Positions 16,882 through 39,845 of a stretch of DNA of 40,552 nucleotides are shown in pieces. The DNA is from Candidatus Nitrosopelagicus sp. (GTDB taxonomy: Archaea > Thermoproteota > Nitrososphaeria > Nitrososphaerales > Nitrosopumilaceae). Position numbers and translations under genes: made by a program. The notes beneath the pieces are model-generated. The model had not been told where the DNA came from and ran no database searches. It was given only the letters and a program-made list of their open reading frames with translations. Positions within the stretch are counted from its first letter, which is position 1. The number at the start of each line of letters is the position of its first letter. The stretch lies in the NCBI GenBank assembly GCA_028343215.1, contig JAOLYB010000010.1, positions 1 through 40,552 on the forward strand. The letters are read 5' to 3'.

Positions 16882-17727
16882 TTAGTACAATTTCTCCTTA
16901 TTTTCTTGAATAAACTTACTAAATGATGTAAACTTGAATTTCTCTAACAAATTCTCCATTTTAGAGTAGGCTTTATTGATATTATGAAATGTAATGAAAT
17001 GATCTTTTTTGGGTAGGTTAATTTTAGGCATAAATTCTGGTGTTAATTCCCAAGAATGAATATAGAACACTCCTGGAATTTCCTTCTTTTCATATGATTT
17101 TATTGCATTTTCAATAATACGGGAAGGTAAGGTTCTCAAATAAAATCCTCCTCCTGCAGGTATTTTTTTTCCTAGAAATTTTGTAACTAGTAACGGAAAC
17201 TCCAAAATTTTTCCATCTATGGAATCCTTTTCTAAGAATTGAGTCGTAATTCTATATGGTTTTATCTCTGCATTTGGAATTCCATACAAACTTGTTTTTG
17301 CTGGAACAACACTGCTGTCATAAATATAGCCATTTTTTTCTAATGAATCAATAATCCAAGAACTAGAATCATTTAATGAAAAACTTGGAGCTCTGAAACC
17401 CTTTGATTTTCCATTGGTCAGTTCATTAAATTTTTTTATTTCTTCATTAAATTTTTCTTTAAAATTAACCGAATCTATTCTAGTATGTTTCATTGTATGA
17501 AATGCTATTTCATGTTCATTTTCTAAAATTAGATCTAATAGTTCTGGTTTAAATTCTAAAAGTTCACCAACTACAAAGAATGTAGCCTTTGTTTCATTCT
17601 GACGTAATAATTCAAGTATTTTATGAATTCCTTGAATTATTTTAGGTTCATGATTTTCATTTGTTATATGTTTTTGAATTAATTCTGGATGAAACCAATC
17701 TTCAAAATCTATACCTAAAATATTCAT
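16882..17727 (-). CDS. Polysaccharide deacetylase, NodB fold with DUF3473-like C-terminus
   Basis: 281 residues. The start NILGIDFEDWFHPE supplies the catalytic and metal-binding acidic residues. KATFFVVGELLE and HEIAFHTMKHTRID (H-x4-H zinc site) follow near residue 75, then GFRAPSFSL. The C-terminal part (PAGGGFYLRTLP, then GVFYIHSWEL) is the pattern seen in deacetylases of exopolysaccharide/exosortase-linked loci. The predicted reaction is N- or O-deacetylation of a glycan sugar. There is no signal peptide, so it may act on a lipid-linked precursor in the cytoplasm. It is 2 nt after the hexapeptide acyltransferase, so acetyl addition and removal are encoded together. Confidence 0.88.
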   Translation of the reverse strand: MNILGIDFEDWFHPELIQKHITNENHEPKIIQGIHKILELLRQNETKATFFVVGELLEFKPELLDLILENEHEIAFHTMKHTRIDSVNFKEKFNEEIKKFNELTNGKSKGFRAPSFSLNDSSSWIIDSLEKNGYIYDSSVVPAKTSLYGIPNAEIKPYRITTQFLEKDSIDGKILEFPLLVTKFLGKKIPAGGGFYLRTLPSRIIENAIKSYEKKEIPGVFYIHSWELTPEFMPKINLPKKDHFITFHNINKAYSKMENLLEKFKFTSFSKFIQENKEKLY

Positions 17728-17729
17728 AT

Positions 17730-18311
17730 CTAGTGATTAATTTTTTTAATTACCCTAGCAGGATTTCCTACTGCGATACAATAATCTGGTATGTCTTGAG
17801 TAACAACACTTCTAGGTGAAATGATTGAATTTTTGCCAATTGTTACTCCTGCAATAATTATTGCACCCGGATTGATAACTGCACCTGATTTTATCATAAC
17901 TTTTGAAATTTTTCTAGGAAACTCACCTTGTTTTAAAAATAAATTTGCAGATGGATTACTATGTGCAAAAATCATTGAGTTAGATCCAAGTGTAACATTA
18001 TCTTGTATCTCTACCATTTTTGGATAAATCAGATCAATTAGCACGTATGGATTAAAATGACAATTTTCACCAATTTTTACACCTCTAGATCTTTGCATTG
18101 AAATTGAAAAACTTGATAACGGTGAGGAGTATGCCAAAGAATGCAAAATCCAACTCTTTAGAAATTTAATTTTAATTTTCAGTCTTCCAAAGTTTCCCGA
18201 GTAACCATAATAATCCATTACTTCTTTTTCATTAATTGGAAAAGTATCTTTGTTTTCTTCCATTTCAATCAAAATTTTAGTTAATTTTTTGTTTCTAAAC
18301 CTTTCTAACAA
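17730..18311 (-). CDS. Left-handed beta-helix (hexapeptide) O-acyltransferase
   Basis: 193 residues: about 75 residues of helical N-terminus, then hexapeptide repeats (VKIGENCHFNPYVLIDL, VEIQDNVTLGSNSMIFAHS, AVINPGAIIIAGVTIGKNSIISPRSVVT). It ends with the VGNPARVIKKI tail typical of LacA/WbbJ-type acetyltransferases. The His in MIFAHS is the usual catalytic position. It should acetylate a sugar hydroxyl (or an aminosugar) from acetyl-CoA. The start is TTG with a short predicted leader from the shared TATA element near 18345. It is the first gene of a five-gene minus-strand unit running to 13123. Confidence 0.85.
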   Translation of the reverse strand: MLERFRNKKLTKILIEMEENKDTFPINEKEVMDYYGYSGNFGRLKIKIKFLKSWILHSLAYSSPLSSFSISMQRSRGVKIGENCHFNPYVLIDLIYPKMVEIQDNVTLGSNSMIFAHSNPSANLFLKQGEFPRKISKVMIKSGAVINPGAIIIAGVTIGKNSIISPRSVVTQDIPDYCIAVGNPARVIKKINH

Positions 18312-18380: not shown

Positions 18381-19322
18381 ATGAATTTTAAATTATTATT
18401 ATCAGTTTTTGTCGCTATAACTTTTACAGGTATTATTTTCTCAACTTCGATGAGTTTTTACATTAATAGCTATGATCCTGATTGGTATGGACTATTATCA
18501 AATAATTCTCTGGATTCAACTCCGAAAGAAAAAATTTTTTTGTTAGGTTCTAGTACAGTTTATTCAGTTAATTCAACATTTGTAAACAATTATTTTGCAA
18601 AAAATGATGTTAATTATGAATTTTTTAACTTGGCTGATATGTCTGATAGTCCAAAAAAACGAATACATAGCATATCGAACATCATATCCAATAATCCTGC
18701 AATTGTAATCTATGGGATAGATGTAGGAGATTTCAGAACAGAAATAAAAAATGAAATTTCTTTAGAGGAAATTATCATTCATCCAAAAAATTTCTTTTTA
18801 TATCAATTTGAAGATTTTATGGAGCCAATCAGAGATAAAATTCCCGGTTCCCCAAAAGATCGATCATTACTCACCATCAAATATTTTCTTTTTGGCCCTC
18901 AACCACATCACCATCCCTTCATAAATTTCTATGAAACATCTGTTACTCCTACTCATGAACTTAAACTGAATTTTAATGACAATTTTGAATCCAAAAAATT
19001 AGATCTTTCTGACGAGAATGAAGAAATAAAATCTCTAAAAGTAATAATTAATGAATTAAAAAAAAATAACATAAAATTAATTTTATTCACGGCTCCAAAA
19101 TTAATTCAAGAAGTAAGTGATTCTGATATACAATTTTTTGAAAAAACCTTATTGACTTATTCAAATGAATATAATTTTCCAGTATATTTTCTTCATGATA
19201 AATATGTAGAACTTGAAATCTGGAGAGATTCACAACATGTGGCGATAAATAATGATACTCAAATCTATACAGAAAATATGACAGAAATTCTACTAAAGGA
19301 GATTAAGAATTTTGCTATTTAA
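18381..19322 (+). CDS. Membrane-anchored SGNH-fold protein, DltD/AlgJ-like partner of the MBOAT acyltransferase
   Basis: 313 residues with a single N-terminal membrane anchor (about 5-28) and an extracytoplasmic domain. FLLGSSTVY (G56-S57-S58) is the SGNH block I in the GSS form seen in DltD, and the C-terminal D283-x2-H286 in RDSQHVA completes a Ser-Asp-His set. Between them are YGIDVGDFR and LILFTAPK strands. The gene overlaps the MBOAT gene by 11 bp. An SGNH protein beside an MBOAT is the pattern of DltD/DltB and AlgJ/AlgI, in which the pair moves an acyl group across the membrane onto a surface polymer. Overall similarity to DltD is only structural, so this is an analogue call. Confidence 0.75.
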   Translation: MNFKLLLSVFVAITFTGIIFSTSMSFYINSYDPDWYGLLSNNSLDSTPKEKIFLLGSSTVYSVNSTFVNNYFAKNDVNYEFFNLADMSDSPKKRIHSISNIISNNPAIVIYGIDVGDFRTEIKNEISLEEIIIHPKNFFLYQFEDFMEPIRDKIPGSPKDRSLLTIKYFLFGPQPHHHPFINFYETSVTPTHELKLNFNDNFESKKLDLSDENEEIKSLKVIINELKKNNIKLILFTAPKLIQEVSDSDIQFFEKTLLTYSNEYNFPVYFLHDKYVELEIWRDSQHVAINNDTQIYTENMTEILLKEIKNFAI

Positions 19323-20787
19323 CTCACTAGATTTTTTAGTATTTTTCTTTGTTATATTATGTATAATTTCATTTTTCAAATTTAGAAGATTTCAACATCT
19401 CTTTCTAATCTTTTCCAGTCTTTTTTTCCTCTATTATACAGATAATTATCTTGTAACTCTATTGATATTTACTATTTTGCTTCATTTTTATGTTGGACGA
19501 GAAATTTATAATTCTCAAACAATTATCCGAAAAAAAATATTTTTTGTTATTGGACTTATAGGTAGTATTGGTGTACTTGGATTTTTCAAATATACTGATT
19601 TTGTAATATCACAACTTAATGTATTTGGAACAATTATAGATCTTAATTCTGAAATTCCTTTGTTAAATTTAGCTTTACCAATTGGAATATCATTTTACAC
19701 ATTCCAATCTATGAGCTACATCATTGATATTTATCGAGGAAGTCTAAAGCCATCTAAAACTCTTAAGGAATATGCATTTTTTGTTGCTTTTTTTCCACCA
19801 CTTGTAGCTGGTCCAATATTAAGAGCAAGTGAATTTTTACCTCAACTTAGAGAAAAAATTTCTCAAAATGAAGTGTCACAAAAATTAAAACTATTTGTTA
19901 TTACCAATACAAATTTAAAATTTGGTATAACGTTAATGTCGATTGGATTTTTCAAAAAAATGTTTTTTTCTGATAATATTGGACCTATCGTAAATAATAT
20001 TTTTTCTAATCCACTTGGATTGGAATCATTTTCTATAATGATTGGAACTATTGCTTTTGGTATTCAGCTTTATTGTGATTTTTCTGGTTATTCTGATATT
20101 GCAATAGGCGCAGCTGCTATACTTGGATTTAAAATTCCATTAAATTTTAACAAGCCATTCTTTGCTTCATCTCCATCTGATTTTTGGACACGATGGCACA
20201 TTAGTTTATCAACATGGGTCCGTGATTATTTGTATTACCCATTAGTTTTTAAAAATAGAAAATCAGAAGGTCTTGTTTTCATTAGTTTAATTATTTCAAT
20301 GCTCTTAATGGGAATTTGGCATGGCGCGTCTTGGAATTTCCTGATTTGGGGTGGTATACATGGTTTATTTTTAGCGTGTTATACGATTCTTAGAAAGAAA
20401 TTTCCTACTGCATCTTCTAATAAATTCTTTAAATCTAAAATCGGTAAAATTTCTAGTATTTTAGTAACTCAGTATTTGATATTCTTTACTTTCATTGCTT
20501 TTTGGATGAAAGATTTTGATCATATGGCATATGCCATGAAGAAGTATGTTCTTTTAGATTTTTCAACAGCTGGTACAATTGAAATTATACGTGATAATGA
20601 ACTTCCGATTCTACTAATGATTTTATTTATGATATTGCATTTTATATCATACAAAAAAGGAAATATCGCTGAAAGAATTTCCAAATTAAAAATTCACTAT
20701 TGGACTAGTATCTTATTCATATTTTTCTTATCAATTGCAATATTTTATGTTGGAAGTGCGCGAGAATTCATATATTTCCAATTTTGA
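19312..20787 (+). CDS. MBOAT-family O-acyltransferase (AlgI/DltB/PatA-like)
   Basis: 491 residues with about 11-12 hydrophobic helices. It has the full MBOAT signature: SFYTFQSMSYIIDIYRG, PLVAGPILRASEFLPQL, YCDFSGYSDIAIGAAAILGF, FWTRWHISLSTWVRDYLYYPL and MGIWHGASWNFLIWGGIHG with the invariant active-site His. These enzymes pass an acyl group from an intracellular thioester donor through the membrane to an exported polysaccharide. In DltB the donor is a carrier protein. The FkbH-ACP-MaoC genes follow 50 nt downstream, so a carrier-protein thioester is a likely donor here too. Family membership is near certain; the acyl group is not known. Confidence 0.93.
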   Translation: MLFNSLDFLVFFFVILCIISFFKFRRFQHLFLIFSSLFFLYYTDNYLVTLLIFTILLHFYVGREIYNSQTIIRKKIFFVIGLIGSIGVLGFFKYTDFVISQLNVFGTIIDLNSEIPLLNLALPIGISFYTFQSMSYIIDIYRGSLKPSKTLKEYAFFVAFFPPLVAGPILRASEFLPQLREKISQNEVSQKLKLFVITNTNLKFGITLMSIGFFKKMFFSDNIGPIVNNIFSNPLGLESFSIMIGTIAFGIQLYCDFSGYSDIAIGAAAILGFKIPLNFNKPFFASSPSDFWTRWHISLSTWVRDYLYYPLVFKNRKSEGLVFISLIISMLLMGIWHGASWNFLIWGGIHGLFLACYTILRKKFPTASSNKFFKSKIGKISSILVTQYLIFFTFIAFWMKDFDHMAYAMKKYVLLDFSTAGTIEIIRDNELPILLMILFMILHFISYKKGNIAERISKLKIHYWTSILFIFFLSIAIFYVGSAREFIYFQF

Positions 20788-20837: not shown

Positions 20838-22583
20838 ATGGAAAAAAACCTTTCAGAATATGTTTCCATTTCAAAAAATATTGAAAATTTAAAACTTGAA
20901 AAAACAGTGAAAATAGCAATAATGTCAAGTTTTACATTAAATGGATTAGATGAAACTATTCGTGTAATGTGTTCCGAACTTGATACACGATGCCACTCAT
21001 ATGTTTCTGGTTACAACCAATATAATCAAGAATTATTAAATTCTCAAAGTAATTATTATGATTTTTCACCTAATATCACATTTTTAATTTTAGATATTAG
21101 AAATTTTCTAGGTGATACTTTTCATTATCCATATGATATATCTGATGAAGAACGAAAATTACTTGTAAAAGAAAAAACTGAACAATTAGAAAATATAATA
21201 TCTCTTTTTGAAAAAAATACAAAATCTAAATTAGTTATTTCAAATTTTAATATTCCATTTTATTCACCTAATGGAATTATTGAAACAAAATCTAATTTTG
21301 GATTTCATGAAATGATTGAAGAGATTAATAGTTCATTACGTCAAATGTGTAAGGAAAAAAATTCAATTTATGTATATGATTTCAATAATTTTGTTTCAAG
21401 ATATGGTGAAAATAATATTTTTGATTATAGACAATTTCACGTAGGTGATATTCAAATTACTTACAATTTAATTCCAAATTTAGCAAATGATTTGATGAGT
21501 TATGTAAAACCATTATTAGGAAAAACTCGAAAGTGTATCGTTTTAGATTTAGATAATACGTTATGGGGTGGTATTGTAGGTGAAGATGGAATTAATGGAA
21601 TTGAATTGGGTCATACCCCGACAGGTAAGGCATTTGTTGAATTCCAAAAAGAATTATTATCATTATGGAATCAGGGGATAATTTTGTCAATAAATAGTAA
21701 AAATAATTTTGATGATGCAATGAAAGTTATTCGTGAACATCCTGACATGATTTTACGCGAAAAACATTTTGCTAGCATTCAAATTAATTGGAATGATAAA
21801 GCAGAAAATATGATACAAATTTCCACTGAAGCAAATATTGGATTAGACAGTTTTGTATTCTTTGATGATGATAAATTAAATCAAGAGAGAATTAAACATG
21901 AATTTCCTGAAATTTTAACAGTTAATGTTTCAGATGATCCTTCTAATTTTGTACCTATACTAAAAGGAATTAATGATTTTAACGTATTACATAGAACAAC
22001 TGAAGATAGCAATAGAGGTGAAATGTATGCACAACAAAGACAACGTAGGAATTTTGAAAATTCTGTATCAAACTTAGATGAATTTTTAAAACAATTGAAA
22101 ATTAAAGTAAAAATCAAAAAAGCAAATAAATTTTTAACGCCCAGAATTTCTCAACTCACACTAAAAACTAACCAATTTAATTTAACAACTAAGAGATATC
22201 AGGAAGAAGAAATTCAAAAGTTGTCCAATAATGAAAATTTTGAGGTTGGATGTGCTCAAGTTTTAGATAAATTTGGTGATAATGGAATTACTGGAGTATA
22301 CATAATCGAAAAAAATAAAAATTTATGGATAATTGATACCTTTTTGCTTAGTTGTAGGATAATAGGTCGAGGAATTGAAACTGCAATTTTAACTGAAATA
22401 GTTAAAAAAGCAAAACAAAACGGAATTACTGAATTAAGGGCTAATTTTATTCCTACCTTAAAAAATAAGCCATCGGAAAATTTTCTTTCCGATTTTGGGT
22501 TTCAAAAAAATAATGATTATTGGATCTATGATTTAAATAATGAAATTAAAACATCAAATCACTTGGAAGTTGAAACTGATTAA
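20838..22583 (+). CDS. FkbH-like HAD-IIIC protein with SGNH-like N-terminus and GNAT-like C-terminus
   Basis: 581 residues in three parts. About 25-225 is the helper domain found in long FkbH-like proteins. About 230-390 is the HAD domain with CIVLDLDNTLWGGIVGEDG (D237 and D239 of the DxDxT motif), then LSINSKNNFDDA and SFVFFDDDKLNQERI. About 410-570 is a GNAT-like domain with LLSCRIIGRGIE and a PTLKNKPSENF block. FkbH enzymes take the glyceryl group from 1,3-bisphosphoglycerate, dephosphorylate it and load it on an acyl carrier protein. All HAD catalytic residues are present. The stop TAA overlaps the ATG of the carrier protein gene by one base (TAATG), so loader and carrier are coupled. The C3 product is an inference from the family. 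Confidence 0.88.
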   Translation: MEKNLSEYVSISKNIENLKLEKTVKIAIMSSFTLNGLDETIRVMCSELDTRCHSYVSGYNQYNQELLNSQSNYYDFSPNITFLILDIRNFLGDTFHYPYDISDEERKLLVKEKTEQLENIISLFEKNTKSKLVISNFNIPFYSPNGIIETKSNFGFHEMIEEINSSLRQMCKEKNSIYVYDFNNFVSRYGENNIFDYRQFHVGDIQITYNLIPNLANDLMSYVKPLLGKTRKCIVLDLDNTLWGGIVGEDGINGIELGHTPTGKAFVEFQKELLSLWNQGIILSINSKNNFDDAMKVIREHPDMILREKHFASIQINWNDKAENMIQISTEANIGLDSFVFFDDDKLNQERIKHEFPEILTVNVSDDPSNFVPILKGINDFNVLHRTTEDSNRGEMYAQQRQRRNFENSVSNLDEFLKQLKIKVKIKKANKFLTPRISQLTLKTNQFNLTTKRYQEEEIQKLSNNENFEVGCAQVLDKFGDNGITGVYIIEKNKNLWIIDTFLLSCRIIGRGIETAILTEIVKKAKQNGITELRANFIPTLKNKPSENFLSDFGFQKNNDYWIYDLNNEIKTSNHLEVETD

Positions 22584-22822
22584 TGACTGATAATGTTCAT
22601 GCAATTGTTGCTAAAGTTTTTTCAATTTCTGAAACTGATGTTAATGACGAATCTGGTCCCGAAAATATTGAATCATGGGATTCATTCAATGGTTTAATTT
22701 TAGTTGATGAACTTGAAAATAATTTTAAAATTAAATTCTCAATTTCTGAAATTACTGATGTAAAAACAGTGGCAGATATTAAAAGACATCTTAAAAACCA
22801 TAATGTATCTGTCAATGAATGA
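22583..22822 (+). CDS. Acyl carrier protein, FkbH-associated type
   Basis: 79 residues, acidic, four-helix ACP size. The phosphopantetheine site is SWDSFNGLIL with Ser34; W-D-S followed by a hydrophobic residue is the form usual for carrier proteins beside FkbH enzymes. The LVDELENNFKIKFSISEI segment after it is the recognition helix II region. It should carry a small acyl group (glyceryl or a derivative) as a thioester. Archaea generally lack fatty-acid-synthase ACPs, so this carrier probably serves glycan decoration only. It overlaps FkbH by 1 bp and the MaoC gene by 8 bp. Priming could come from the AcpS-type gene at 39480-39845. Confidence 0.9.
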   Translation: MTDNVHAIVAKVFSISETDVNDESGPENIESWDSFNGLILVDELENNFKIKFSISEITDVKTVADIKRHLKNHNVSVNE

Positions 22823-23246
22823 TAAAGTTTCTGAATATACTTTTAATGATATTGAAATAGGTTTTTCAAAAAAATTTCAAGTTATTATCACGGAATCACT
22901 TGTAAAACAATTTGCTTCTGTTTCTGGAGACTATAGTCCTATTCATTTGGATGAAAAATATGCAAAATCTACAACTTTTAAAAAAAGAGTTGTTCATGGA
23001 ATGCTGCTGGCGTCATTTCTTTCACGTGTAGATGGTATGTATTTACCTGGTAAACATGCATTATATTTTTCACAAAATATTGAATTTAGAAATCCTTGTT
23101 TTATTGGAGATACAGTCACAATTTTCAGTAAGGTTATTGACAAAAGCGAATCAACAAAAATTTTAAAAATTGAATCTGAAATTATAAATCAAGAAAATAA
23201 ATTACTGCTTTACGGTTTAGGTCGTGTAATTGTAAGAGATGATTAA
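22815..23246 (+). CDS. MaoC-like (R)-hydratase/dehydratase, hotdog fold
   Basis: About 143 residues, single-hotdog size. The hydratase motif is SGDYSPIHLDEKYA, with the Asp-His catalytic pair, then VVHGMLLASFLSR and NIEFRNPCFIGDTV, the family's conserved blocks. Known members add or remove water on acyl-CoA or acyl-ACP thioesters. Being translationally coupled to the carrier protein suggests it works on the ACP-bound group, for example dehydrating or hydrating a hydroxyacyl thioester. ATG 22815 is preferred over in-frame ATG 22803 because the protein then starts just before the conserved YTFNDIEIG segment and overlaps the ACP stop. It closes the unit. Confidence 0.88.
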   Translation: MNDKVSEYTFNDIEIGFSKKFQVIITESLVKQFASVSGDYSPIHLDEKYAKSTTFKKRVVHGMLLASFLSRVDGMYLPGKHALYFSQNIEFRNPCFIGDTVTIFSKVIDKSESTKILKIESEIINQENKLLLYGLGRVIVRDD

Positions 23247-23324: not shown

Positions 23325-24824
23325 ATGAAAACATTCAATGATGTTCAAAAGACTAGGATGAAATATCATAAAGAACCTGATCTTAACCCTATTCACCGTT
23401 CATCTCTAATGGTGCCTGAAATTCAAGGTAGTATTGCAGAAATAAGCTTTCTAAATCATTTCCTCTTAAAAAGAAATTATGATCATATTGCCTGTGTAAT
23501 TACTCCTATTGGAATTGATGGCAAAAAACTTGATTCTAGATTACATGTGATAGATGAACCACGAGTTTATCGTTTTACATTAACTGGTATATCTGACCAA
23601 TCTGTTTCAAATTACATGGTAGAATTCTTTTCTTCAAAAAATCTATTCATTCCTTTCTCAGCTGTCATGGTGAATCATAGAAATCAAGATTTCTTTAATC
23701 AAGTTCATTCCTTTAATCGAAGTTTAAATGATATCTTCGAAGATGACGAAGTAAATAACCACGTTGTAAAAGAGGCATCAGTTGATCTTATTCTAAATGA
23801 CGACATTGACACATGTTTACTTTTTACAGCTGGTCCTATGGGGTGTAACGATACTGTTGATATTGAAATTGTTGGTGAAAATGAAACTTTTGAATCTAAA
23901 AAACAAATTAATCTACCAAGATTTGGAACTGAATTAATTAGTATTAGTAATACTTTCAAAAATATTCCAAATAACTTTTCTGGAATTTTAAAAGCATCTC
24001 AGCCAAAACAACCTCTTTTCTATGGACGATTGTTGGGAGGTCAATGGAATTCTAGTGGTGATTTTTCAGCAAATCATACATATTATGATTTTCAAAATGT
24101 AGAAGATTACTGGAAAGATAATCAACCTTCCCAAAGCTATTATCCATTTTTTTCAGAATTAATAAATTCTATTAGGATTTATCCATTATCTTCGCCTAGT
24201 GAACTAGAAATTTTTGTTACACCTGTTTTAGATGATTCAACAATTTTGGATGAGATTTTTATAGATAATCTTATTTCTCCGAGCAATAAATTCATTGATA
24301 AAAATTTGAATTCTTTATTTTCTAATTTAAAAATAGATTTGGATAAAATTTCTTCTTATATTGTAACTGCTAAAGTTAAAAATGGAAAAAAACCTGGAAG
24401 AATAAGTTTACAGGTTGTTTATGGAAAGGGAAGTTTGGAATCATCTATAAACATGACATTGTATAACCCTGGAACTTTTGTAGGGAATAAAAAAAGTTTC
24501 AAATGGGGTCAAACCGTTACAAGTAGTAAATTTGAAACGTTAGTTGGAATAACTACTGCACCAATAGACGATCCAACTAAAAAGATCTATGAATGTCATG
24601 TCCAATTTTATGATGAAACAGGAAAAATTGCAGATAAAAATTGGGAGATTAAATCCGGAACATCAAAAAAATTCTCTATATCTGAAGAATTAAATCTCAC
24701 AATAAACCAAGATTCTGTTCCACATTATGTTTGGTGTGTTATTGAGGGTGATCCTGGAATTAGTTTTAATGCTGTAACGTATAACAATAAAACAAATAAT
24801 TGCTCTGGAGATCATGGATTTTAA
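23325..24824 (+). CDS. Unidentified beta-rich protein with repeated domains
   Basis: 499 residues that I cannot assign to a family. There is no signal peptide or membrane helix, so it looks cytoplasmic unless exported another way. The composition (alternating polar and hydrophobic, many Ser, Asn, Phe, Pro) predicts beta-sandwich domains. Three segments share a pattern of a hydrophobic strand, an F-x-(A/G)-x2 turn, an Asn-rich loop and a terminal aromatic with nearby His. They end near VHSFNR (about residue 130), NHTYYDF (about 260) and SGDHGF (499, the C-terminus), suggesting three related domains. It lies between the MaoC gene and the sulfatase-fold gene on the same strand. A glycan-binding or scaffold role is possible but not shown. 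Confidence 0.6.
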   Translation: MKTFNDVQKTRMKYHKEPDLNPIHRSSLMVPEIQGSIAEISFLNHFLLKRNYDHIACVITPIGIDGKKLDSRLHVIDEPRVYRFTLTGISDQSVSNYMVEFFSSKNLFIPFSAVMVNHRNQDFFNQVHSFNRSLNDIFEDDEVNNHVVKEASVDLILNDDIDTCLLFTAGPMGCNDTVDIEIVGENETFESKKQINLPRFGTELISISNTFKNIPNNFSGILKASQPKQPLFYGRLLGGQWNSSGDFSANHTYYDFQNVEDYWKDNQPSQSYYPFFSELINSIRIYPLSSPSELEIFVTPVLDDSTILDEIFIDNLISPSNKFIDKNLNSLFSNLKIDLDKISSYIVTAKVKNGKKPGRISLQVVYGKGSLESSINMTLYNPGTFVGNKKSFKWGQTVTSSKFETLVGITTAPIDDPTKKIYECHVQFYDETGKIADKNWEIKSGTSKKFSISEELNLTINQDSVPHYVWCVIEGDPGISFNAVTYNNKTNNCSGDHGF

Positions 24825-24863: not shown

Positions 24864-26423
24864 ATGAAACAAGAAATTAAACAGATATCATTCTCATTTC
24901 ATCCTTTACTATTCGCAATTTTTCCCGCTATATCGCTTCTTTCTGAAAATCTGCATTTACTAGTGCCTAGTGATTTATTATTCCCAATACTCATCTTTGT
25001 ATTTGTAGCAATCTCTGTATGGGGAATTTTATATTTAATTTTTAAAAATATTGTAAAAACAAGCCTGATAACCTCTCTTTCACTATTCTTATTTTTTGCA
25101 TATGGTCATTTTGCTTCAATAACCTATGATCTATTTTTTCAAGAAACTACGTTTAAAGAACATTTGATTTTACTATCCATATTTTTTGTAGGAATTATAA
25201 TAATCTCCAGATATATTCTAAAATCAAAACATTCCTTACATAATGTATCATTAATCGCTATGATTGTTGGAATATCAATTTTAATATTGCCTATAGGAAT
25301 AATTGTGACAAATTCTACTGAACAAAATTATTTGGAAACTGATGATATTAAATCAAATTTTTCTAATGTAAAAACTGGTGAACTTCAAAAACCAGATATC
25401 TATCTAATTGTTTTAGACAGCTATCCCAATGAAAAAATACTAAGTGAATTATTTGATTTTGATAATAGTGATTTCATTTCATTTCTATCATCGAAAAATT
25501 TTTTCATACCTGAAAGTACTTTTTCCCATTATCATACTTCATTTTTGAGTATAACGTCTCTCTTGAACATGGATTACATTAATTATTTTACAACTGATGT
25601 TGGGGAAAATTCAAAGAATAGATTTTTAGCTTACAAAATGATTGATGAAAACCAAATTATGAAAATTGCACAATCACAAGATTATGTAACCATTAACATT
25701 GATTCTGGTTGGGAAGCTACGCGGTACATCTCTTCTGCTGATGTTAATTTATGTGGAAAAAATCAATTTTTAAATTCACAAACAATTGTAATGATGATTA
25801 AAAATAGTATGCTGAATCCAATATATGTAAAAATATTTGAATCTGATTATCGAGATAGAATTAATTGTTCATTTGATTCACTTTCAAACTTCCATAATGA
25901 AACAAAACAACCAGTTTTTGTTTTTAGTCATATTTTTTTACCACATGGTCCTTACTATTGGGGACCAAATGGGGAATATAATGTTCCTTCTAAAGCAACT
26001 TTAGAAGGATTTCATAAAGATAAAAAAGGATTCACTGATCAATTACAATTTACAAATAAAAAAGTTAAACAGTTTGTTACAACAATTCTTAACGAATCTG
26101 ATACACCTCCAATTATAATTTTATATTCTGATCATGGAACAATGTTGAGTTCAGATGAAAATACATTTTCTGAAGATTTCATAACTGAAAGAATGTCAAA
26201 CATTACGTATGTACACCTTCCAGATCATGACTATGAATCATTGAAAGAGGATTCAAGTTCTATTAATCTTTTAAGAATGATTTCAAATAATTACTTACAA
26301 CAAAATCTTCCATACTTAGAACAAAAATATTATTTTAGTGATGATGACAAACCTTACAGATGGCTTGATGTAACTGACTTTTTGTTAAAAAATAAGAAGA
26401 TTGATGTAAATTTCTTTAATTAA
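24864..26423 (+). CDS. Membrane-bound alkaline-phosphatase-superfamily (sulfatase-fold) enzyme
   Basis: 519 residues. About five hydrophobic helices (residues 10-150) anchor a large outer domain. That domain shows IYLIVLDSYPNEKIL (first metal Asp), a SHYHTSFLSITSLLNMDY segment holding the likely Ser/Thr nucleophile, FSHIFLPHGPYYWGPNGEY and IILYSDHGTM (Asp-His metal pair). The layout resembles LtaS, EptA and OpgE-type transferases that attach phospho-alcohols to surface polymers, and also membrane sulfatases. The canonical C-x-P-x-R sulfatase motif is absent, which favours a phospho-group transferase or phosphatase. It is 39 nt after the unidentified beta-rich gene. Substrate unknown. Confidence 0.75.
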   Translation: MKQEIKQISFSFHPLLFAIFPAISLLSENLHLLVPSDLLFPILIFVFVAISVWGILYLIFKNIVKTSLITSLSLFLFFAYGHFASITYDLFFQETTFKEHLILLSIFFVGIIIISRYILKSKHSLHNVSLIAMIVGISILILPIGIIVTNSTEQNYLETDDIKSNFSNVKTGELQKPDIYLIVLDSYPNEKILSELFDFDNSDFISFLSSKNFFIPESTFSHYHTSFLSITSLLNMDYINYFTTDVGENSKNRFLAYKMIDENQIMKIAQSQDYVTINIDSGWEATRYISSADVNLCGKNQFLNSQTIVMMIKNSMLNPIYVKIFESDYRDRINCSFDSLSNFHNETKQPVFVFSHIFLPHGPYYWGPNGEYNVPSKATLEGFHKDKKGFTDQLQFTNKKVKQFVTTILNESDTPPIIILYSDHGTMLSSDENTFSEDFITERMSNITYVHLPDHDYESLKEDSSSINLLRMISNNYLQQNLPYLEQKYYFSDDDKPYRWLDVTDFLLKNKKIDVNFFN

Positions 26424-26425
26424 TT

Positions 26426-27466
26426 TTATAAAATTTCTTTCTTGACTTTTTTACTTAATCTTGTTAATATCGAATTAAAATTTTTATTATTTGATTGATT
26501 TGAAACATTTTTTGGAACAAAAATTTCATCTGGAAAATATTTAATTAATTCCTTATCTGAAATAATTTTATTTTTTTCTAATTCTTCATATTTCTTCTCT
26601 ATTTTCTCTCTATTTTTTCTAATATCCAATTCTGCTCTTATCTTTGCACCTAGGAAACCTTTTGAGATATAAAACATCCAGACAAATAGATCTACTACAA
26701 ATAAAGAGAGTTTAATCTGAGAATACGTTTCCTTTGAATAATGTGTTTGTAGACAATATTTTCGATTTCTTTCCAACCAATAGAATTTTTTTGAAGACCA
26801 TTTTAAAGAATAACTTTCTACGTGAAAAATTTTAGATTTTGGAACATAGTATGAATTTATTCCCATTTGTGCAGCTCTCCATCCTAAATCCAAATCGTCA
26901 TGATACAGAAATAAAAATTTGTCAAATAATCCAATTTTTTGTAAAACTTTTTTTGATGTGAACAAACATGTTCCTGAAGCATATCCTATTCTTTCAATTT
27001 CTTCATCTTTATCCGAAATTTTCTCTCCCTTATCTCTTGCAAAACCAAATCCAAAAATTTGTATCATATTTCCGGTACTTTGAATTATTCCCTCTTCATG
27101 TAATGACATAATTTTTGGTTGAAATAATCCCTCTCCAATTTTCTCATATCCTAAAATTAATTCTTTAATCCAATTTTTATCAACAATTGTATCTGGATTA
27201 AGAATTATCAAAAATTCGCCTTTTGCACTAGTTATTCCAATATTATTTCCTTCACAATAACCAAAATTTTTTTCATTTTGAATTAATTTAATATCTGGAA
27301 ATTTTTCTTTACAAATAGTTTGACTATTATCTGATGAAATATTATCCACCACAATTATTTCTAAATTATTGTAATCTGATTTTTTTATTGATTCTACACA
27401 ATCTAGTAATAATTTCCCTGCATTATAGTTTAGAATTATGACACTAACTAGTGATTCTTTGTTCAT
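26426..27466 (-). CDS. Family 2 glycosyltransferase (rhamnosyltransferase-like group)
   Basis: 346 residues. VSVIILNYNAGKLLLDCV and VVDNISSDNSQTIC form the nucleotide site, LIILNPDTIVDKNW (near residue 93) holds the metal-binding Asp pair, and LFLYHDDLDLGWRAAQMG is the conserved ED/HDDxD acceptor block of the WcaE/rhamnosyltransferase-type group. A hydrophobic stretch near residues 245-265 may peripherally associate it with the membrane, and the C-terminus is strongly basic. It follows RmlA by 49 nt on the minus strand, so it may use the dTDP sugar made from that enzyme's product. Its stop lies 2 nt from the stop of the convergent sulfatase-fold gene. Confidence 0.88.
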   Translation of the reverse strand: MNKESLVSVIILNYNAGKLLLDCVESIKKSDYNNLEIIVVDNISSDNSQTICKEKFPDIKLIQNEKNFGYCEGNNIGITSAKGEFLIILNPDTIVDKNWIKELILGYEKIGEGLFQPKIMSLHEEGIIQSTGNMIQIFGFGFARDKGEKISDKDEEIERIGYASGTCLFTSKKVLQKIGLFDKFLFLYHDDLDLGWRAAQMGINSYYVPKSKIFHVESYSLKWSSKKFYWLERNRKYCLQTHYSKETYSQIKLSLFVVDLFVWMFYISKGFLGAKIRAELDIRKNREKIEKKYEELEKNKIISDKELIKYFPDEIFVPKNVSNQSNNKNFNSILTRLSKKVKKEIL

Positions 27467-34020: not shown

Positions 34021-34042
34021 TGCCTGATTGTTTTTTGATTTG

Positions 34043-35431
34043 ATGGAAAATACATCTAAAATTGGTAATGAAATGTATAATTTAATTGAAAATTTGTATC
34101 CAATTTGTAGAAGTATAACTGGGAATGGTACGAGAGAAACTTTACAAATTATTTCAAAAATAATTCCTATCCAAATTCATGAGGTATCTTCTGGAACAAG
34201 TGTTTTTGATTGGACAATTCCAAATGAATGGAACATAAAAGACGCGTATATCAAATCTCCAACAGGTGAAAAGATAATTGATTTTAAAAAATCTAATTTA
34301 CATATTTTATATTACAGTCTTCCAATAAATAAAAAAATTACATTAAACGAACTTAAAGAACATATTTTCACACAACCTGATAGGCCGAAAGACATTCCTT
34401 ATAGAACTTCTTACTATTCTGAAAAATGGGGCTTCTGCATGAGTCATGAACAATTTTTAAAACTTGAAGATGGTGACTATGAAGTTGTAATTGACTCTGA
34501 ATTAAAATCAGGAAGCTTATCGTATGGTGAGTATTACTTTAAAGGAAATTCCGATGAAGAAATACTACTTTCTTGTTACATTTGTCATCCTTCTTTATGC
34601 AATGATAGCTTATCTGGGGTTGTTACTGCTGTTGAATTAGCTAAATTTATTGAAGAATTAAAACAAAAAACAAATTACTCATACAGAATTTTATTCATAC
34701 CTGAAACAATTGGTTCTATCACTTGGTTGTCTCGTAATCAAGAAAAAATTAAAAATATTAAACATGGTTTAGTTATAACTTGTACCGGAGATAAAGGAAA
34801 AATAAATTATAAGAAAACTCGTAATGGAAATTCAGAAATCGATAAAATAGTAATTGATGTTTTAGAAAATTCAAATGAAGACTTTTCAGTTCTTGATTAT
34901 TTCCCTTTTGGTTCTGATGAGCGTCAATATTGTTATCCTGGAATTAATCTAAACATGGGTTGTTTAACCAGAACTGTATTTGGTGATTTTCCAGAATATC
35001 ACACATCTGCAGATAATTTGACATATGTTAGTCCGTTACCTCTTGCCAACACATTAAAAATATACATTAGAATAATTGAAAAACTGGAAGAAAATTATGC
35101 CAAATTCCAGTTGAACGGCAGTACCACTAAAAAAATTAAAAAATCATTGTCTGTTGATCCGGTTTTTGTGAATCTTGTAAAATGTGAACCTCAACTGGGA
35201 AAAAGAAATCTTTACCATGATCTCGGCGGTCCAAAACTCAAACCTTTTCATGGAAGGGGTTCCAAAGATACAACAAAAATAAAAGAAAAGGCAATGATGT
35301 GGATTTTAGCTTATTCTGATGGCACCAACTCACTAAAAGATATTGAAGTAAAATCTAACATTGATTTTGAAACATTAATTCAAATTTCAAATTTGTTATG
35401 TGATCACAAATTAATTAAAGAATTAAAGTAA
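34043..35431 (+). CDS. DUF4910/DUF2172 aminopeptidase-fold protein with C-terminal winged-helix-like segment
   Basis: 462 residues. This family has an M28-like metallopeptidase core interrupted by an inserted domain and followed by a small helix-turn-helix-like domain. SICRSITGNGTRETL-type residues (CRSITGNGTRETLQ) open it. Metal-ligand candidates are CYICHPSLCNDSLSG (His and Asp), FIPETIGS (Glu), FGSDERQYC (Asp) and FPEYHTSADN (His). The last 80 residues (GLNDL-like SDGTNSLKDIEVKSN region) form the winged-helix-like tail. Members are common in bacterial capsule and O-antigen loci, where their substrate is unclear. An amidase or acyl-hydrolase acting on aminoacylated sugars would fit this setting. 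All ligands appear intact. Confidence 0.82.
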   Translation: MENTSKIGNEMYNLIENLYPICRSITGNGTRETLQIISKIIPIQIHEVSSGTSVFDWTIPNEWNIKDAYIKSPTGEKIIDFKKSNLHILYYSLPINKKITLNELKEHIFTQPDRPKDIPYRTSYYSEKWGFCMSHEQFLKLEDGDYEVVIDSELKSGSLSYGEYYFKGNSDEEILLSCYICHPSLCNDSLSGVVTAVELAKFIEELKQKTNYSYRILFIPETIGSITWLSRNQEKIKNIKHGLVITCTGDKGKINYKKTRNGNSEIDKIVIDVLENSNEDFSVLDYFPFGSDERQYCYPGINLNMGCLTRTVFGDFPEYHTSADNLTYVSPLPLANTLKIYIRIIEKLEENYAKFQLNGSTTKKIKKSLSVDPVFVNLVKCEPQLGKRNLYHDLGGPKLKPFHGRGSKDTTKIKEKAMMWILAYSDGTNSLKDIEVKSNIDFETLIQISNLLCDHKLIKELK

Positions 35432-35462
35432 TTATTCACAAAAATATTAATTCATAGATAGA

Positions 35463-35470
35463 GATATTTT
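35463..35470 (+). promoter_or_regulatory. TATA-like box for the second carrier-protein operon
   Basis: GATATTTT is centred 25.5 nt before ATG 35492, consistent with a leaderless promoter driving the AAC(3)-like/ACP/VOC/AMP-ligase unit. Confidence 0.4.
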
Positions 35471-35491
35471 CCTAATTATTATTTACATTAC

Positions 35492-36289
35492 ATGAATGAA
35501 TTTCAAAATTATGATGATCTTGAGAATTATTTCTCTGATACATTTGTTAAATTAGGCGTAAAAGATTATGATTTTTGTTATATCTATAGTGATTTGAGAT
35601 TTTTTGCTTCATCTATGAAAATTGATATTGAAAAAGACAGATTTTGCAACTCAATAATTTCTCCTTTACTTAATCTCAAAAAAACAATTATCATACCTAC
35701 ATTTTCTTATACAACTGAAGGCGTTTTTGATGTTGAAAAAACTCCTACTTCACTTGGTACTCTCAACTCATGGATACTTAGGCAATCAAATGTAAAAAGA
35801 TCTAATCATCCCTTATTTTCATTTGGAGCACTGGGTCCTAAATCATCCCTAGTTGAAAATTGTGGAAAATCTGCTTTTGGAAAAAATTCAGTTCATGACA
35901 ATTTAAGAGAAAATAAATGCTGTTTCATAAATATTGGAAGAGCAATAGAAAAAGGTAATACAATAATTCATAATATTGAACAATCTTGTGAGGCTAAGTA
36001 TAGATTTAACAAAGTTTTTAAAACTTCTGTATTAAAGAAAAATAAATTGTTTGATTCTGATTATTCTGCTTTTGTAAGAAGACAAGACGTACCTGATCAT
36101 GATTTTAAATTTAATTTCATTGAAGCTGCAAAAATAATTTATTCAGAAGGAATTGTACATGAAGTTGGTGATTCAGAGTTATTATCAAATATTTCTTTAT
36201 ACGATTATGATAAAACTCGTGCCATTCTTGTTAAAGCTTTTATAAAAAATTCATCTATCTTTTTGTCTAAGCCTTTCACCCAATTTTGA
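35492..36289 (+). CDS. AAC(3)/YokD-family acyltransferase
   Basis: 265 residues. The family that includes aminoglycoside 3-N-acetyltransferases moves an acyl group from a pantetheine thioester to an amine. Visible blocks are a LGVKDYDFCYIYSDL N-terminus, IIIPTFSYTTEGVFD, GTLNSWILRQSNVKRSNHPLFSFGALG (the conserved HP-x2-S-x-G region), and a NTIIHNIEQSCEAKYRF segment with the active-site His-Glu area. It is the first gene of an operon with an acyl carrier protein 10 nt downstream, so it probably uses an ACP thioester to acylate an aminosugar rather than conferring drug resistance. The TGA stop overlaps the GAGG ribosome-binding site of the ACP gene. Confidence 0.82.
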   Translation: MNEFQNYDDLENYFSDTFVKLGVKDYDFCYIYSDLRFFASSMKIDIEKDRFCNSIISPLLNLKKTIIIPTFSYTTEGVFDVEKTPTSLGTLNSWILRQSNVKRSNHPLFSFGALGPKSSLVENCGKSAFGKNSVHDNLRENKCCFINIGRAIEKGNTIIHNIEQSCEAKYRFNKVFKTSVLKKNKLFDSDYSAFVRRQDVPDHDFKFNFIEAAKIIYSEGIVHEVGDSELLSNISLYDYDKTRAILVKAFIKNSSIFLSKPFTQF

Positions 36290-36298
36290 GGTTTTTAA

Positions 36299-36538
36299 AT
36301 GGAATTTTCTAAGAAAGAAAAAATCATTTGTAATTTCTTTGTTGAACGTGAAGGTGAAGAAATTTTGAAAGTTATAAAAAAAATTGATTTCATAGATGAA
36401 GGTATTTTAGATTCACTTGATGTAGTAAGCTTGGCAGCATTTCTACAAAAAGAATTTAAAAAAAAGATAGATGTCACAAATTATGAAACTATGCAAGCTT
36501 TTCATCATTTTGACGATATTGTAAAATTAGTAATATGA
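36299..36538 (+). CDS. Acyl/peptidyl carrier protein, canonical GxxDSL type
   Basis: 79 residues with a basic N-terminus and the carrier-protein signature FIDEGILDSLDVVSLAAFLQ; Ser39 in D38-S39-L40 is the 4'-phosphopantetheine site. It differs clearly from the other carrier protein of the window (WDSF type), so each probably has its own loading enzyme. GAGG at 36288-36291, inside the stop of the AAC(3)-like gene, sits 7 nt before the ATG as ribosome-binding site. Its stop overlaps the VOC gene start (ATGA). The AMP ligase two genes downstream is the likely loader, as DltA is for DltC. Confidence 0.9.
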   Translation: MEFSKKEKIICNFFVEREGEEILKVIKKIDFIDEGILDSLDVVSLAAFLQKEFKKKIDVTNYETMQAFHHFDDIVKLVI

Positions 36539-36945
36539 AAAAAATGCATCATATCGGTATTGTTTCTGAAAACATAGATCTTGCATTAAATGCACTTAAT
36601 TTGAATAAATCTGATATCAATGAAATAATTGATGATCATGTACAAAATAATTACTTACATTTTATTAGATTAGAAAATAATGATCCTTGGATAGAGATTA
36701 TTACTCCAAAAAATAATAATTCTACAATTTTTAATTTTTCTCAAAAATATAAAATGGGATTACATCATATGGGTTTTTTGTGTAATAGTATAGAAGAAAT
36801 CAAATCTAAATTCAATACTAATACTAATGTAGTAACATTGGGTACGTACGAGTTAACAGTAAACTCTTTTGGTGGACAAATTTCAACCTTATTCATGTCT
36901 GCTAACAATTTGATTACTGAATACGTTGAACTAAAAAATGAATAA
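36535..36945 (+). CDS. VOC-superfamily protein, methylmalonyl-CoA-epimerase/glyoxalase-like
   Basis: 136 residues forming two beta-alpha-beta-beta-beta units. MHHIGIVSENI and LHHMGFLCNSI each bring a His, and PWIEIITP and LITEYVEL each bring a Glu. This is the two-His two-Glu metal set of methylmalonyl-CoA epimerase and related enzymes. Those abstract a proton next to a thioester carbonyl, so in an operon between a carrier protein and an AMP ligase it may epimerise or isomerise the carrier-bound acyl group. Its start overlaps the ACP stop by 4 bp and its end overlaps the ligase by 8 bp. The reaction is inferred, not shown. Confidence 0.8.
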   Translation: MKKMHHIGIVSENIDLALNALNLNKSDINEIIDDHVQNNYLHFIRLENNDPWIEIITPKNNNSTIFNFSQKYKMGLHHMGFLCNSIEEIKSKFNTNTNVVTLGTYELTVNSFGGQISTLFMSANNLITEYVELKNE

Positions 36946-38449
36946 AAAAAATTTTTCTGACATAATTCATCAAAAATTAACTCTGTCTGAGAAAATTATT
37001 TTAAAAGATGGATGGAATGATTGGACCTGGAAAAATTTGATTTTTCGTTCATTTGCGTATGCTGAATTTATTAAAAATAATTATTCAGATGTAGATATTC
37101 CTGCAATTCCAATAATCGTAGGACGTTCTGGTGAAAGTATTGCTGCTATGATGGGATCAATTTTGGCCGGTTACCCATTTGCACCTATTTCTCATACTCA
37201 GCCATCTGTTCGAATTAAGAATATCATTGATTCCTTAAATGCATCTCATGCAATTTCTGGTCTTCATTCATTGGAACAAAAACCAGAAAAATTAGAAATT
37301 TTAGAATTATCAAAAAATAAATTACTCCAAAAATTTTCTTCTCAATCTAAAAAAAGCAAAATATTGTATCTTTTGTTTACATCTGGGTCAACTGGAAAAC
37401 CAAAAGGTGTACTATGTTCTACTAATAATATTATGAATACTATGAATTGGAGTAAAAAATACTTAGATTGGAATAAATCTGATGTAATAGGTTGCGCTAC
37501 ACAATTCTCTTTTGATATTTCATTATTTGATTTCTTTACAATGTTGTATTTTGATGTCCCACTAGCCATTCTGGATAAAATTTCTAGTCCACAAGAAGTC
37601 ACTAAACAAATTTCAACTTTTAAGGTGTCTTCTATTTTTTCTGTACCTGCATTTTTTTCACAATTTACAACAAAGAGTTCAATAAAAAATATTTCTGAAA
37701 CTAAACTTAGAAGAATAATTGCTGGAGGTGATTTTTTTTCACCTAAGCATATTCATTTTTGGATGAAAAACTTTCCAAAAATATCCATATACAATGTTTG
37801 GGGACCAACTGAAACTTCAATTGTCAATTCAATGCATAAAATTACGAAAAGAGATATTAAAAAAATTGAAAAAGGTCAATACACTTCAATAGGAAAATCC
37901 ACACTTTTAATGCAATTAGTACTGGTAAATTCAAAAAATGAATTGATTTCAAAACATAATGAAATTGGAGAATTAGCAGTTCTTGGAAAATCTGTAAGCA
38001 TGGGTTACTATAATTCTCCTAGTGAAACAGAGAAAAAATATTTCATGTTTAATAAAAAACCTGCATTTAAAACAGGAGATTTAGGATATAAGGATAAAAA
38101 TGATAATTTTTACTTGGTTGGAAGAAATGATAATATTGTAAAAATGCACGGTTACAGAATTGATTTGAATGAGATTGAAAAAACATTAAATAATTTTTCT
38201 AACGTTTATGCAACTTCTGTATTTGTAAATAAAATTTCCAATGCCCATAGTGAATTATGGGCAGCTTTAGAGTTACAAAATAAGAATGTAAAACTAAATG
38301 TATTTGAAACTAAAAAGAAGCTCCGAAAATTATTACCAAGTTATATGGTGCCAAAACGTCTACTTGTCATGCCTAAATTACCTCTAACTATTAATGGAAA
38401 ATTAGATAAAAAAGAGGTATTGAAATATGTTCGTCAAAATGCAATATAA
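36938..38449 (+). CDS. AMP-forming acyl/amino-acid ligase, DltA-like adenylation domain
   Basis: 503 residues, the length of DltA and free-standing NRPS adenylation domains. Core motifs are present in order: A3 LFTSGSTGKPKGV (about 147-157), A4 FSFDISLFDFF, A5 NVWGPTETSI, A7 FKTGDLG, A8 GRNDNIVKMHGYRIDLNEIE and A10 LPLTINGKLDKKE with the catalytic Lys. It should activate a carboxylic or amino acid with ATP and load it on the carrier protein encoded two genes upstream. There are no condensation or thioesterase domains, so this is not an NRPS. An amino acid is likelier than a fatty acid given the A-domain type motifs, but the substrate cannot be read. Confidence 0.9.
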   Translation: MNKKNFSDIIHQKLTLSEKIILKDGWNDWTWKNLIFRSFAYAEFIKNNYSDVDIPAIPIIVGRSGESIAAMMGSILAGYPFAPISHTQPSVRIKNIIDSLNASHAISGLHSLEQKPEKLEILELSKNKLLQKFSSQSKKSKILYLLFTSGSTGKPKGVLCSTNNIMNTMNWSKKYLDWNKSDVIGCATQFSFDISLFDFFTMLYFDVPLAILDKISSPQEVTKQISTFKVSSIFSVPAFFSQFTTKSSIKNISETKLRRIIAGGDFFSPKHIHFWMKNFPKISIYNVWGPTETSIVNSMHKITKRDIKKIEKGQYTSIGKSTLLMQLVLVNSKNELISKHNEIGELAVLGKSVSMGYYNSPSETEKKYFMFNKKPAFKTGDLGYKDKNDNFYLVGRNDNIVKMHGYRIDLNEIEKTLNNFSNVYATSVFVNKISNAHSELWAALELQNKNVKLNVFETKKKLRKLLPSYMVPKRLLVMPKLPLTINGKLDKKEVLKYVRQNAI

Positions 38450-38473
38450 TGAATATATTATAATCAATAGTAG

Positions 38474-38481
38474 TATTAATA
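38474..38481 (+). promoter_or_regulatory. TATA-like box for the formyltransferase gene
   Basis: TATTAATA is centred 27.5 nt before ATG 38505, indicating a separate leaderless transcript. Confidence 0.45.
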
Positions 38482-38504
38482 TCAAAAATAAATTTTAGAT
38501 TATT

Positions 38505-39479: not shown

Positions 39480-39845
39480 TTAATTATTTTTTATAGATAT
39501 AGCAACTGCAATCGCAAATTCCTTTTCATGTGAAATCGATGCTATAAAATTATATCTGTTCGGTAGTGATTTTTTTATTTTGACTGTCGGTTTTGAATTT
39601 GTATGACCTGTTACTATTTCTAAGAATCCGACATCTTCATTAATTGATTTGATTACTGCTTCCTTTAGTGCAAATTTACCCGCAAAATGCTCATATGGAG
39701 ATTTAAATTTTTTACAATATTCAATTTCATCCTCTAAAAATATTTTTTTATAAAAATCAAGATTTGCTTTAAATGGTTTGTTCTTAAATCTACTAACATT
39801 TACGATATCTATACCAATTCCAAATGTATTGTTCACAGTTTTCAA
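39480..39845 (-). CDS. acpS: AcpS-type holo-ACP synthase (4'-phosphopantetheinyl transferase)
   Basis: 121 residues, the size of bacterial AcpS. FGIGIDIVNVSRF carries the magnesium Asp, FAGKFALKEAVIKSI the second acidic ligand, and FIASISHEKEFAIAVA the conserved SISH block. It transfers phosphopantetheine from CoA to the Ser of carrier proteins and is the natural primer for the two carriers at 22583 and 36299. The start is TTG (39845) with a GTG three codons later as alternative. It lies 48 nt after the capsule-type gene on the same strand, so the two may be cotranscribed. AcpS-type enzymes are uncommon in archaea, which makes its placement here informative. Confidence 0.9.
   Translation of the reverse strand: MKTVNNTFGIGIDIVNVSRFKNKPFKANLDFYKKIFLEDEIEYCKKFKSPYEHFAGKFALKEAVIKSINEDVGFLEIVTGHTNSKPTVKIKKSLPNRYNFIASISHEKEFAIAVAISIKNN

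Follow-up and report, generated by a model that had tools for sequence, protein, structure and literature searches.

What does an archaeal genome make with genes for an FkbH-like enzyme, an acyl carrier protein (ACP), and a MaoC dehydratase placed head to tail, and where does the product go? The question is raised by positions 20838 to 23246 of contig JAOLYB010000010.1 of “Candidatus Nitrosopelagicus sp.” (assembly GCA_028343215.1), the whole 40,552-nucleotide stretch of which is referred to here as the window. An initial annotation of this DNA proposed a glyceryl-ACP route followed by a dehydratase, with the altered C3 unit being transferred by the MBOAT protein encoded upstream. Our analysis indicates that an AcpS protein and a hexapeptide-repeat acyltransferase, rather than the MBOAT, complete the cassette. 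On the basis of sequence comparison, we regard as about evenly balanced the case for a self-contained carrier-protein route consisting of formation of glyceryl-ACP, putative dehydration by MaoC, and transfer by the hexapeptide enzyme to a presumed glycan acceptor.

The FkbH-ACP-MaoC cassette

All three genes lie on the forward strand. The first (20838 to 22583) encodes an FkbH-like glyceryltransferase/phosphatase (HAD-IIIC) that contains the FkbH_N domain (PF21211) and scores 291.9 bits against TIGR01686 (cut-off, 146.65). Its HAD motif (DLDNTLWGG) and SCR cysteine (C506) are intact, and the two aspartates of the catalytic DxD (D237 and D239) and C506, which we take to be the catalytic cysteine of the family, are invariant in an alignment of 12 sequences. 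The second gene (22583 to 22822) encodes ACP1, which scores 23.0 bits against PF00550 (cut-off, 20.8) and is the only match to that profile in the window's genome at an E value of ≤0.001; its serine, found in the motif WDSFN, is retained in all 23 archaeal ACPs aligned. The third (22803 to 23246, with a likely start at 22815) encodes a MaoC (R)-hydratase/dehydratase with a score of 67.5 bits against PF01575 (cut-off, 27), in which the catalytic D and H are intact; this dyad is invariant in MaoC set A3, and the nearest solved structures are 1iq6 and 5cpg. The FkbH and ACP genes overlap by 1 base (TAATG). The overlap between the ACP and MaoC genes depends on the start codon assigned to MaoC: it is 20 bp with the first ATG (22803) and 8 bp with the ATG at 22815, which is where the gene starts in relatives. 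Coordinates, motifs, and family cut-offs thus agree with the head-to-tail arrangement, intact HAD motif, and overlaps of 1 and 8 bp described initially.

The window is one contig of a 1.06-Mb, 75% complete genome which, judged by its sequence, is archaeal and belongs to an ammonia oxidizer of the Nitrosopumilaceae/Marine Group I kind; the closest FkbH sequences (72% and 65% identity; L072 and L073) are from Marine Group I archaea. The genome also encodes a phosphoglycerate kinase. The comparison of related genomes that had been recommended as a check reveals the same FkbH-ACP-MaoC order across the Nitrosopumilaceae, and the order is therefore not a product of chance.

AcpS and the distribution of the cassette

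Searches for FkbH in 300 genomes of the order Nitrososphaerales gave matches in 37, with 25 over the cut-off. A species-level scan (one genome per species) found 586 FkbH loci, from which the best 80 (15 archaeal and 65 bacterial) were taken for comparison. Archaeal counts out of 28 refer to those of 43 loci in which FkbH is flanked by 2.5 kb or more in both directions; the window is excluded from them and would miss on AcpS. These 28 loci include Asgard archaea, one Nanoarchaeota genome, and one Methanospirillaceae genome, and they contain ACP (28), AcpS (28), the hexapeptide gene (26), MaoC (16), VOC (5), reductase (4), and MBOAT (1) genes, although some of the Nitrososphaerales loci supplied the training sequences for the hidden Markov models (HMMs) for ACP, AcpS, MaoC, and the hexapeptide protein, which makes matches in that order partly a matter of construction. 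Among 13 loci from other archaea, 12 have an AcpS match, and these 12 are outside the training set; one flank of the thirteenth (L211) is only 766 bases long.

In relatives, the small gene directly downstream of MaoC encodes holo-ACP synthase, and all nine archaeal AcpS proteins sampled exceed the Pfam cut-off. AcpS is located within 2.5 kb of FkbH in each of the 28 loci. Among the best 80 loci, it lies within 3 kb and on the same strand as FkbH in 13 of 15 archaeal loci versus 1 of 65 bacterial loci (P = 4.5e-12 by Fisher test, a test which, here and below, treats the sampled loci as unrelated and leaves kinship uncorrected). This contrast would be explained if bacteria, which own the AcpS of fatty acid synthesis, need no second one, while archaea mostly lack it. 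Across the 300 genomes of the order, 20 have both FkbH and AcpS, 5 FkbH only, 15 AcpS only, and 260 neither (P = 1.8e-17), and two of the five apparent FkbH-only genomes (G080 and G239) do carry AcpS on direct reading. AcpS is present as well in loci of Bathyarchaeum and Micrarchaeota that lie on short contigs.

The window's own AcpS, a 4'-phosphopantetheinyl transferase encoded on the reverse strand (39480 to 39845), is the sole PF01648 match in its genome (52.5 bits). It is over the cut-off for TIGR00556 (57.3 bits) and just below that of the equivalog model TIGR00516 (55.8 bits; cut-off, 59.8), and the GIDIV and KFxxKEA motifs are present. The slot that AcpS occupies after MaoC in relatives is held in the window by two unrelated genes (23325 to 24824 and 24864 to 26423). 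Their products (499 and 519 amino acids) have no Pfam or NCBIfam match; by eye, the second resembles a membrane-anchored sulfatase/phosphatase-type protein.

The usual layout in relatives places a polysaccharide deacetylase gene and the hexapeptide acyltransferase gene on one strand and FkbH-ACP-MaoC-AcpS on the opposite strand, followed by a glycosyltransferase gene and then an RmlA-like gene. The window has the conserved neighbors on the reverse strand: a polysaccharide deacetylase-like gene (16882 to 17727; PF11959/PF01522) beside the hexapeptide gene and a family 2 glycosyltransferase gene (26426 to 27466; PF00535) downstream. Exceptions to the layout are L054, where an FkbH-like frame occurs with VOC and without ACP or AcpS, and three short contigs (L042, L043, and L013) without the hexapeptide gene. 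A quick FkbH tree places most archaeal sequences together (SH-aLRT, 93), with the bacterium L078 inside the archaeal group and the Methanospirillaceae sequence L106 and L054 outside it. Contamination is an unlikely source of the cassette, since the single-contig relatives G009, G065, G096, G099, G171, and G239 hold FkbH, ACP, and AcpS. In L053 and L057, FkbH is split into several frames and the remaining cassette genes are kept, which suggests that loss is under way in some strains.

The proposed acyltransferase

The hexapeptide-repeat acyltransferase (17730 to 18311, reverse strand; PF00132, 51 bits), which we propose as the user of the acyl-ACP, is encoded beside FkbH in 26 of 28 archaeal loci, and its His117 is invariant in 12 archaeal sequences. 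A further indication comes from four loci (L212, L213, L214, and L216) whose genomes encode AcpS but yield no FkbH match above the cut-off. There, AcpS faces a MenE/FadD-like AMP ligase gene (families checked in L212 and L213), and an ACP-like frame is found in three of the four genomes, those of L212 and L213 having scores from our own HMM only (37 and 31 bits) and no NCBIfam match. The same hexapeptide gene is retained in L212 to L214 (288 to 295 bits). Its retention where the loader is an AMP ligase indicates that the loader changes and the transferase stays. L213 also carries SGNH-like and MBOAT genes.

The transferase named in the initial annotation was the DltB-like MBOAT (19312 to 20787, forward strand; PF03062, 97.3 bits), whose best NCBIfam match is TIGR04091 DltB (172.5 bits; cut-off, 375). 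If MaoC dehydrates or otherwise alters the glyceryl unit, this enzyme could transfer it together with a possible SGNH/DltD-like partner encoded on the same strand (18381 to 19322), which is recognizable by motifs only (GSST and DSQH, by eye), has no Pfam or NCBIfam match, and has a predicted structure of unusable quality (pLDDT, 38.8). The MBOAT gene begins 51 bp upstream of FkbH in the window, 13 of 65 bacterial loci have an MBOAT gene next to FkbH, the Micrarchaeota locus L089 has the order MBOAT-AcpS-FkbH-ACP-MaoC, and DltB-type MBOATs work with a carrier protein. However, only 1 of 28 archaeal loci has an MBOAT beside FkbH, in contrast to the hexapeptide gene. Furthermore, because the MBOAT is DltB-like and the window has DltA-like and DltC-like genes (matches below cut-offs), its donor is more likely the second carrier protein, ACP2. 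Transfer by the MBOAT is thus unlikely, and this part of the earlier proposal is not supported.

The hexapeptide enzyme might instead acylate an archaeal polyprenyl-glycerol or glycolipid, and its top NCBIfam match is indeed a heptaprenylglyceryl phosphate O-acetyltransferase. That match (64.5 bits) is far under the cut-off of 300, the other matches are polysaccharide and sugar acetyltransferases, and the locus is rich in glycan genes, all of which make a lipid acceptor quite improbable.

The role of MaoC

In a tree of 56 MaoC domains, the 21 archaeal FkbH-linked proteins form one clade (support, 99/91) and 18 unlinked MaoCs form a separate one (98/90), with four other unlinked sequences, all archaeal, placed elsewhere on a very long branch (L057, L102, L123, L074, and L076 were left out). 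Two residues, M75 and S111 (79 and 115 in another numbering), are mostly common to the FkbH-linked proteins and occur in 0 of 22 unlinked ones. Among 201 Nitrososphaerales genomes, all 14 strong MaoC matches are in FkbH genomes, of which 13 have FkbH over the cut-off and one (G110) has a fragment at a contig end; a housekeeping role of MaoC was rejected on these grounds.

At bacterial FkbH loci, a short-chain dehydrogenase/reductase (SDR) gene accompanies FkbH in 9 of 11 loci with MaoC versus 1 of 54 without it (P = 1.7e-8), in counts that skip MaoC matches of <50 bits (L109, L112, L115, L123, L126, L127, and L147) and 12 plasmid loci. MaoC and SDR form a single protein in seven bacterial loci (L092, L098, L099, L101, L102, L107, and L110), and in Maritalea, MaoC-SDR-ACP is one chain beside an acyltransferase-FkbH fusion, the ACP part having been read by eye with no Pfam score.

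MaoC could also dehydrate a 3-hydroxyacyl-ACP made by condensation, as in fatty acid or polyketide-like chain building of the tetronate kind. Such clusters are the best-known setting of FkbH (PMC7489565), and a KASIII-like gene is present at one of the loci with MaoC (L098). However, phmmer with two KASIII queries and one KS query found no ketosynthase near the other 19 of the 20 loci that bear MaoC, nor in 28 Nitrososphaerales loci, and the same 28 loci gave no FabH-like or E2 partner when one E2 query was added. In the window's genome, a partial PF00109 match in a 368-amino-acid frame (29.6 bits; cut-off, 20.8; model positions 137 to 217 of 252) was taken for a thiolase-type enzyme. We consider chain building very improbable, and the tetronate, methoxymalonate, and chain-elongation readings were rejected, their partner genes not having been found. 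Given the missing ketosynthase and the pairing with a reductase, the FkbH-loaded unit seems to be the only substrate available to MaoC and to any reductase that accompanies it.

The genomic context (a dedicated clade, the reductase pairing, and no ketosynthase) thus partly supports MaoC as a putative tailoring enzyme of the FkbH-loaded C3 unit. The view of FkbH and ACP as a glyceryl-ACP loader followed by MaoC was retained on this basis, with only the MBOAT transfer step set aside.

Another gene occupies the MaoC position in some relatives. A VOC (methylmalonyl-CoA epimerase-like) gene fills the slot between ACP and AcpS in L038 (8931 to 9329) and L047 (4843 to 5247). MaoC and VOC occur together in 0 of 28 archaeal loci (chance, 0.008), and the test is nonsignificant in the 80 genome loci. 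Of the five VOC loci, four (L082, L084, L121, and L209) belong to other archaea, and in three of these four the VOC gene lies on the opposite strand; a true swap within the operon is found only in L038 and in L047, which is outside the 28. Mutual exclusion is thus weak evidence. The VOC gene of the window itself (36535 to 36945) was dropped as a cassette member; it overlaps the ACP2 and AMP ligase genes of another set.

A proposed pathway

The proposed route would begin with conversion of ACP to holo-ACP by AcpS. FkbH, by the function of its family, would then take glyceryl from 1,3-bisphosphoglycerate and strip the phosphate to give glyceryl-S-ACP. MaoC, as a β-hydroxyacyl-thioester dehydratase, may eliminate the C3 hydroxyl of glyceryl-ACP, the resulting enol being that of pyruvyl-ACP, which a dedicated short-chain reductase, where one stands beside MaoC, could reduce to lactyl-ACP. 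Relatives with VOC in the place of MaoC would make another form of the same C3 unit. Finally, the divergent hexapeptide acyltransferase would use the acyl-ACP to acylate a hydroxyl on a surface glycan or on a precursor of that glycan.

Several observations weigh against this scheme, in addition to the uncorrected kinship among loci. A reductase of the L050 kind was not found in the window's 75% complete genome (best identity, 27%) and occurs in only 3 of 13 FkbH genomes searched, for which reason the unit in the window's genome would most likely be pyruvyl, not lactyl, unless a general reductase acts. MaoC elimination on a 2,3-dihydroxyacyl thioester is undocumented in the literature searched (here and below, literature outside subscription). 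The nearest solved kin of the hexapeptide protein are maltose and galactoside acetyltransferases, enzymes that use acetyl-CoA. The window's AcpS lies 16 kb from the cassette, unlike in relatives, and among archaeal ACPs sampled, 7 of 10 pass the Pfam cut-off, 2 narrowly miss it, and 1 is without any match. MaoC is missing from 12 of 28 archaeal loci and is hence optional. Glyceryl-ACP itself is presumably usable in those 12, and glyceryl might be delivered unchanged as a plain decoration, with MaoC editing or removing misloaded acyl groups or serving another substrate. This alternative does not account for a MaoC that keeps its D/H dyad, overlaps the ACP gene, and is bound to FkbH in the tree, and the tie between MaoC and reductase in bacteria is left unexplained by editing; we judge it doubtful.

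More broadly, the AcpS-FkbH-ACP set and the hexapeptide acyltransferase may, as a tentative proposal that we hold somewhat short of probable, constitute a widespread archaeal system (Asgard, Bathyarchaeia-like, DPANN, and ammonia-oxidizing archaea) for tagging surface glycans with C3 acids derived from 1,3-bisphosphoglycerate, in which the exchangeable MaoC, MaoC plus reductase, or VOC would set the tag as pyruvyl, lactyl, or epimerized glyceryl. If true, a carrier-protein pathway that serves no fatty acid synthesis would be present in marine ammonia oxidizers, among others, and the C3 acid on the surface glycans of these archaea becomes a testable matter.

Other carrier-protein sets

A second carrier-protein set is found next to AcpS in the window (34028 to 39479), with genes for DUF4910, Antibiotic_NAT-like, ACP2, VOC, DltA-like AMP ligase, and formyltransferase proteins. 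ACP2 (36299 to 36538) is DltC-like and under the Pfam cut-off. Together with the DltB-like MBOAT, this set resembles a dispersed archaeal system for decoration of the Dlt-like or N-formyl-aminoacyl type. In two bacterial plasmids, of Maritalea (L060, 5218 to 9196) and Rahnella (L070), FkbH is fused to an Antibiotic_NAT-type acyltransferase and is followed by MaoC-SDR-ACP or by MaoC and SDR. A single chain uniting the loader with an N-acyltransferase suggests that an amino sugar is N-acylated.

Comparison with known systems

Archaea are said to be without ACPs or to include only a few unrelated species with transferred ones (PMC6138646 and PMC3533463), a view with which a repeated, complete set with its own activating enzyme contrasts. 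Polyketide pathways are a known setting of FkbH paired with a stand-alone ACP (PMC7489565 and PMC3679948), and peptide synthetases are one for FkbH domains (PMC8949500 and PMC10099666). Within the literature searched, as far as it could be viewed, papers linking FkbH and archaea concern bacterial natural products. No paper was found there to treat FkbH together with MaoC, lactyl, bryostatin, or the pair polysaccharide and glyceryl, and the capsule and O-antigen literature had no FkbH among the matches listed. The parts are therefore known, and their combination and archaeal setting appear to be undescribed in that literature.

The methoxymalonyl-ACP pathways (FK520 and tetromadurin Mad11-15) share FkbH, a stand-alone ACP, and glyceryl from 1,3-bisphosphoglycerate (PMC7489565). 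There, two dehydrogenases and an O-methyltransferase follow, whereas here MaoC, AcpS, and a hexapeptide acyltransferase are found in an archaeal glycan locus; Pfam shows no such dehydrogenase and methyltransferase set among the neighbors in the window. The tetronate glycerate-utilization operon (Mad7/8/16-18, PMC7489565; Methylosinus L067 and Pseudalkalibacillus L062) has the FkbH-ACP pair in common but also the FabH-like enzyme and E2-type acyltransferase that were not found at archaeal FkbH loci. The Dlt system (DltA-DltB-DltC-DltD) likewise feeds an MBOAT from a carrier protein, and the window has DltA-, DltB-, and DltC-like genes. However, these three are split by about 15 kb, their loader chemistry is unlike that of FkbH, and none reaches its equivalog cut-off (DltA, 261.7 bits against 476; DltB, 172.5 against 375; DltC, 24.9 against 68). 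PhaJ-type (R)-specific enoyl-CoA hydratases (1iq6 and 5cpg) belong to the same sequence family as MaoC and have the D/H dyad, but the FkbH-linked proteins stand apart in the tree.

Formation of glyceryl-ACP in the methoxymalonyl-ACP pathways is of the FkbH/OzmB type. The bryostatin loading module BryA, which we take to combine FkbH, a dehydratase, and a ketoreductase for a proposed D-lactyl starter, would follow a like scheme in which glyceryl-ACP is dehydrated and then reduced, although BryA is a modular polyketide synthase and the proteins here are free-standing, with an optional reductase. The bacterial MaoC-SDR fusion loci (Maritalea L060, Omnitrophota L099, Rhodoferax L101, and SAR116 L107) differ in that the reductase is fused and AcpS is not beside them, but they share FkbH, ACP, and the FkbH-type MaoC with the archaeal cassette, and in Maritalea surface-glycan genes (NeuB and DUF4910) are found nearby.

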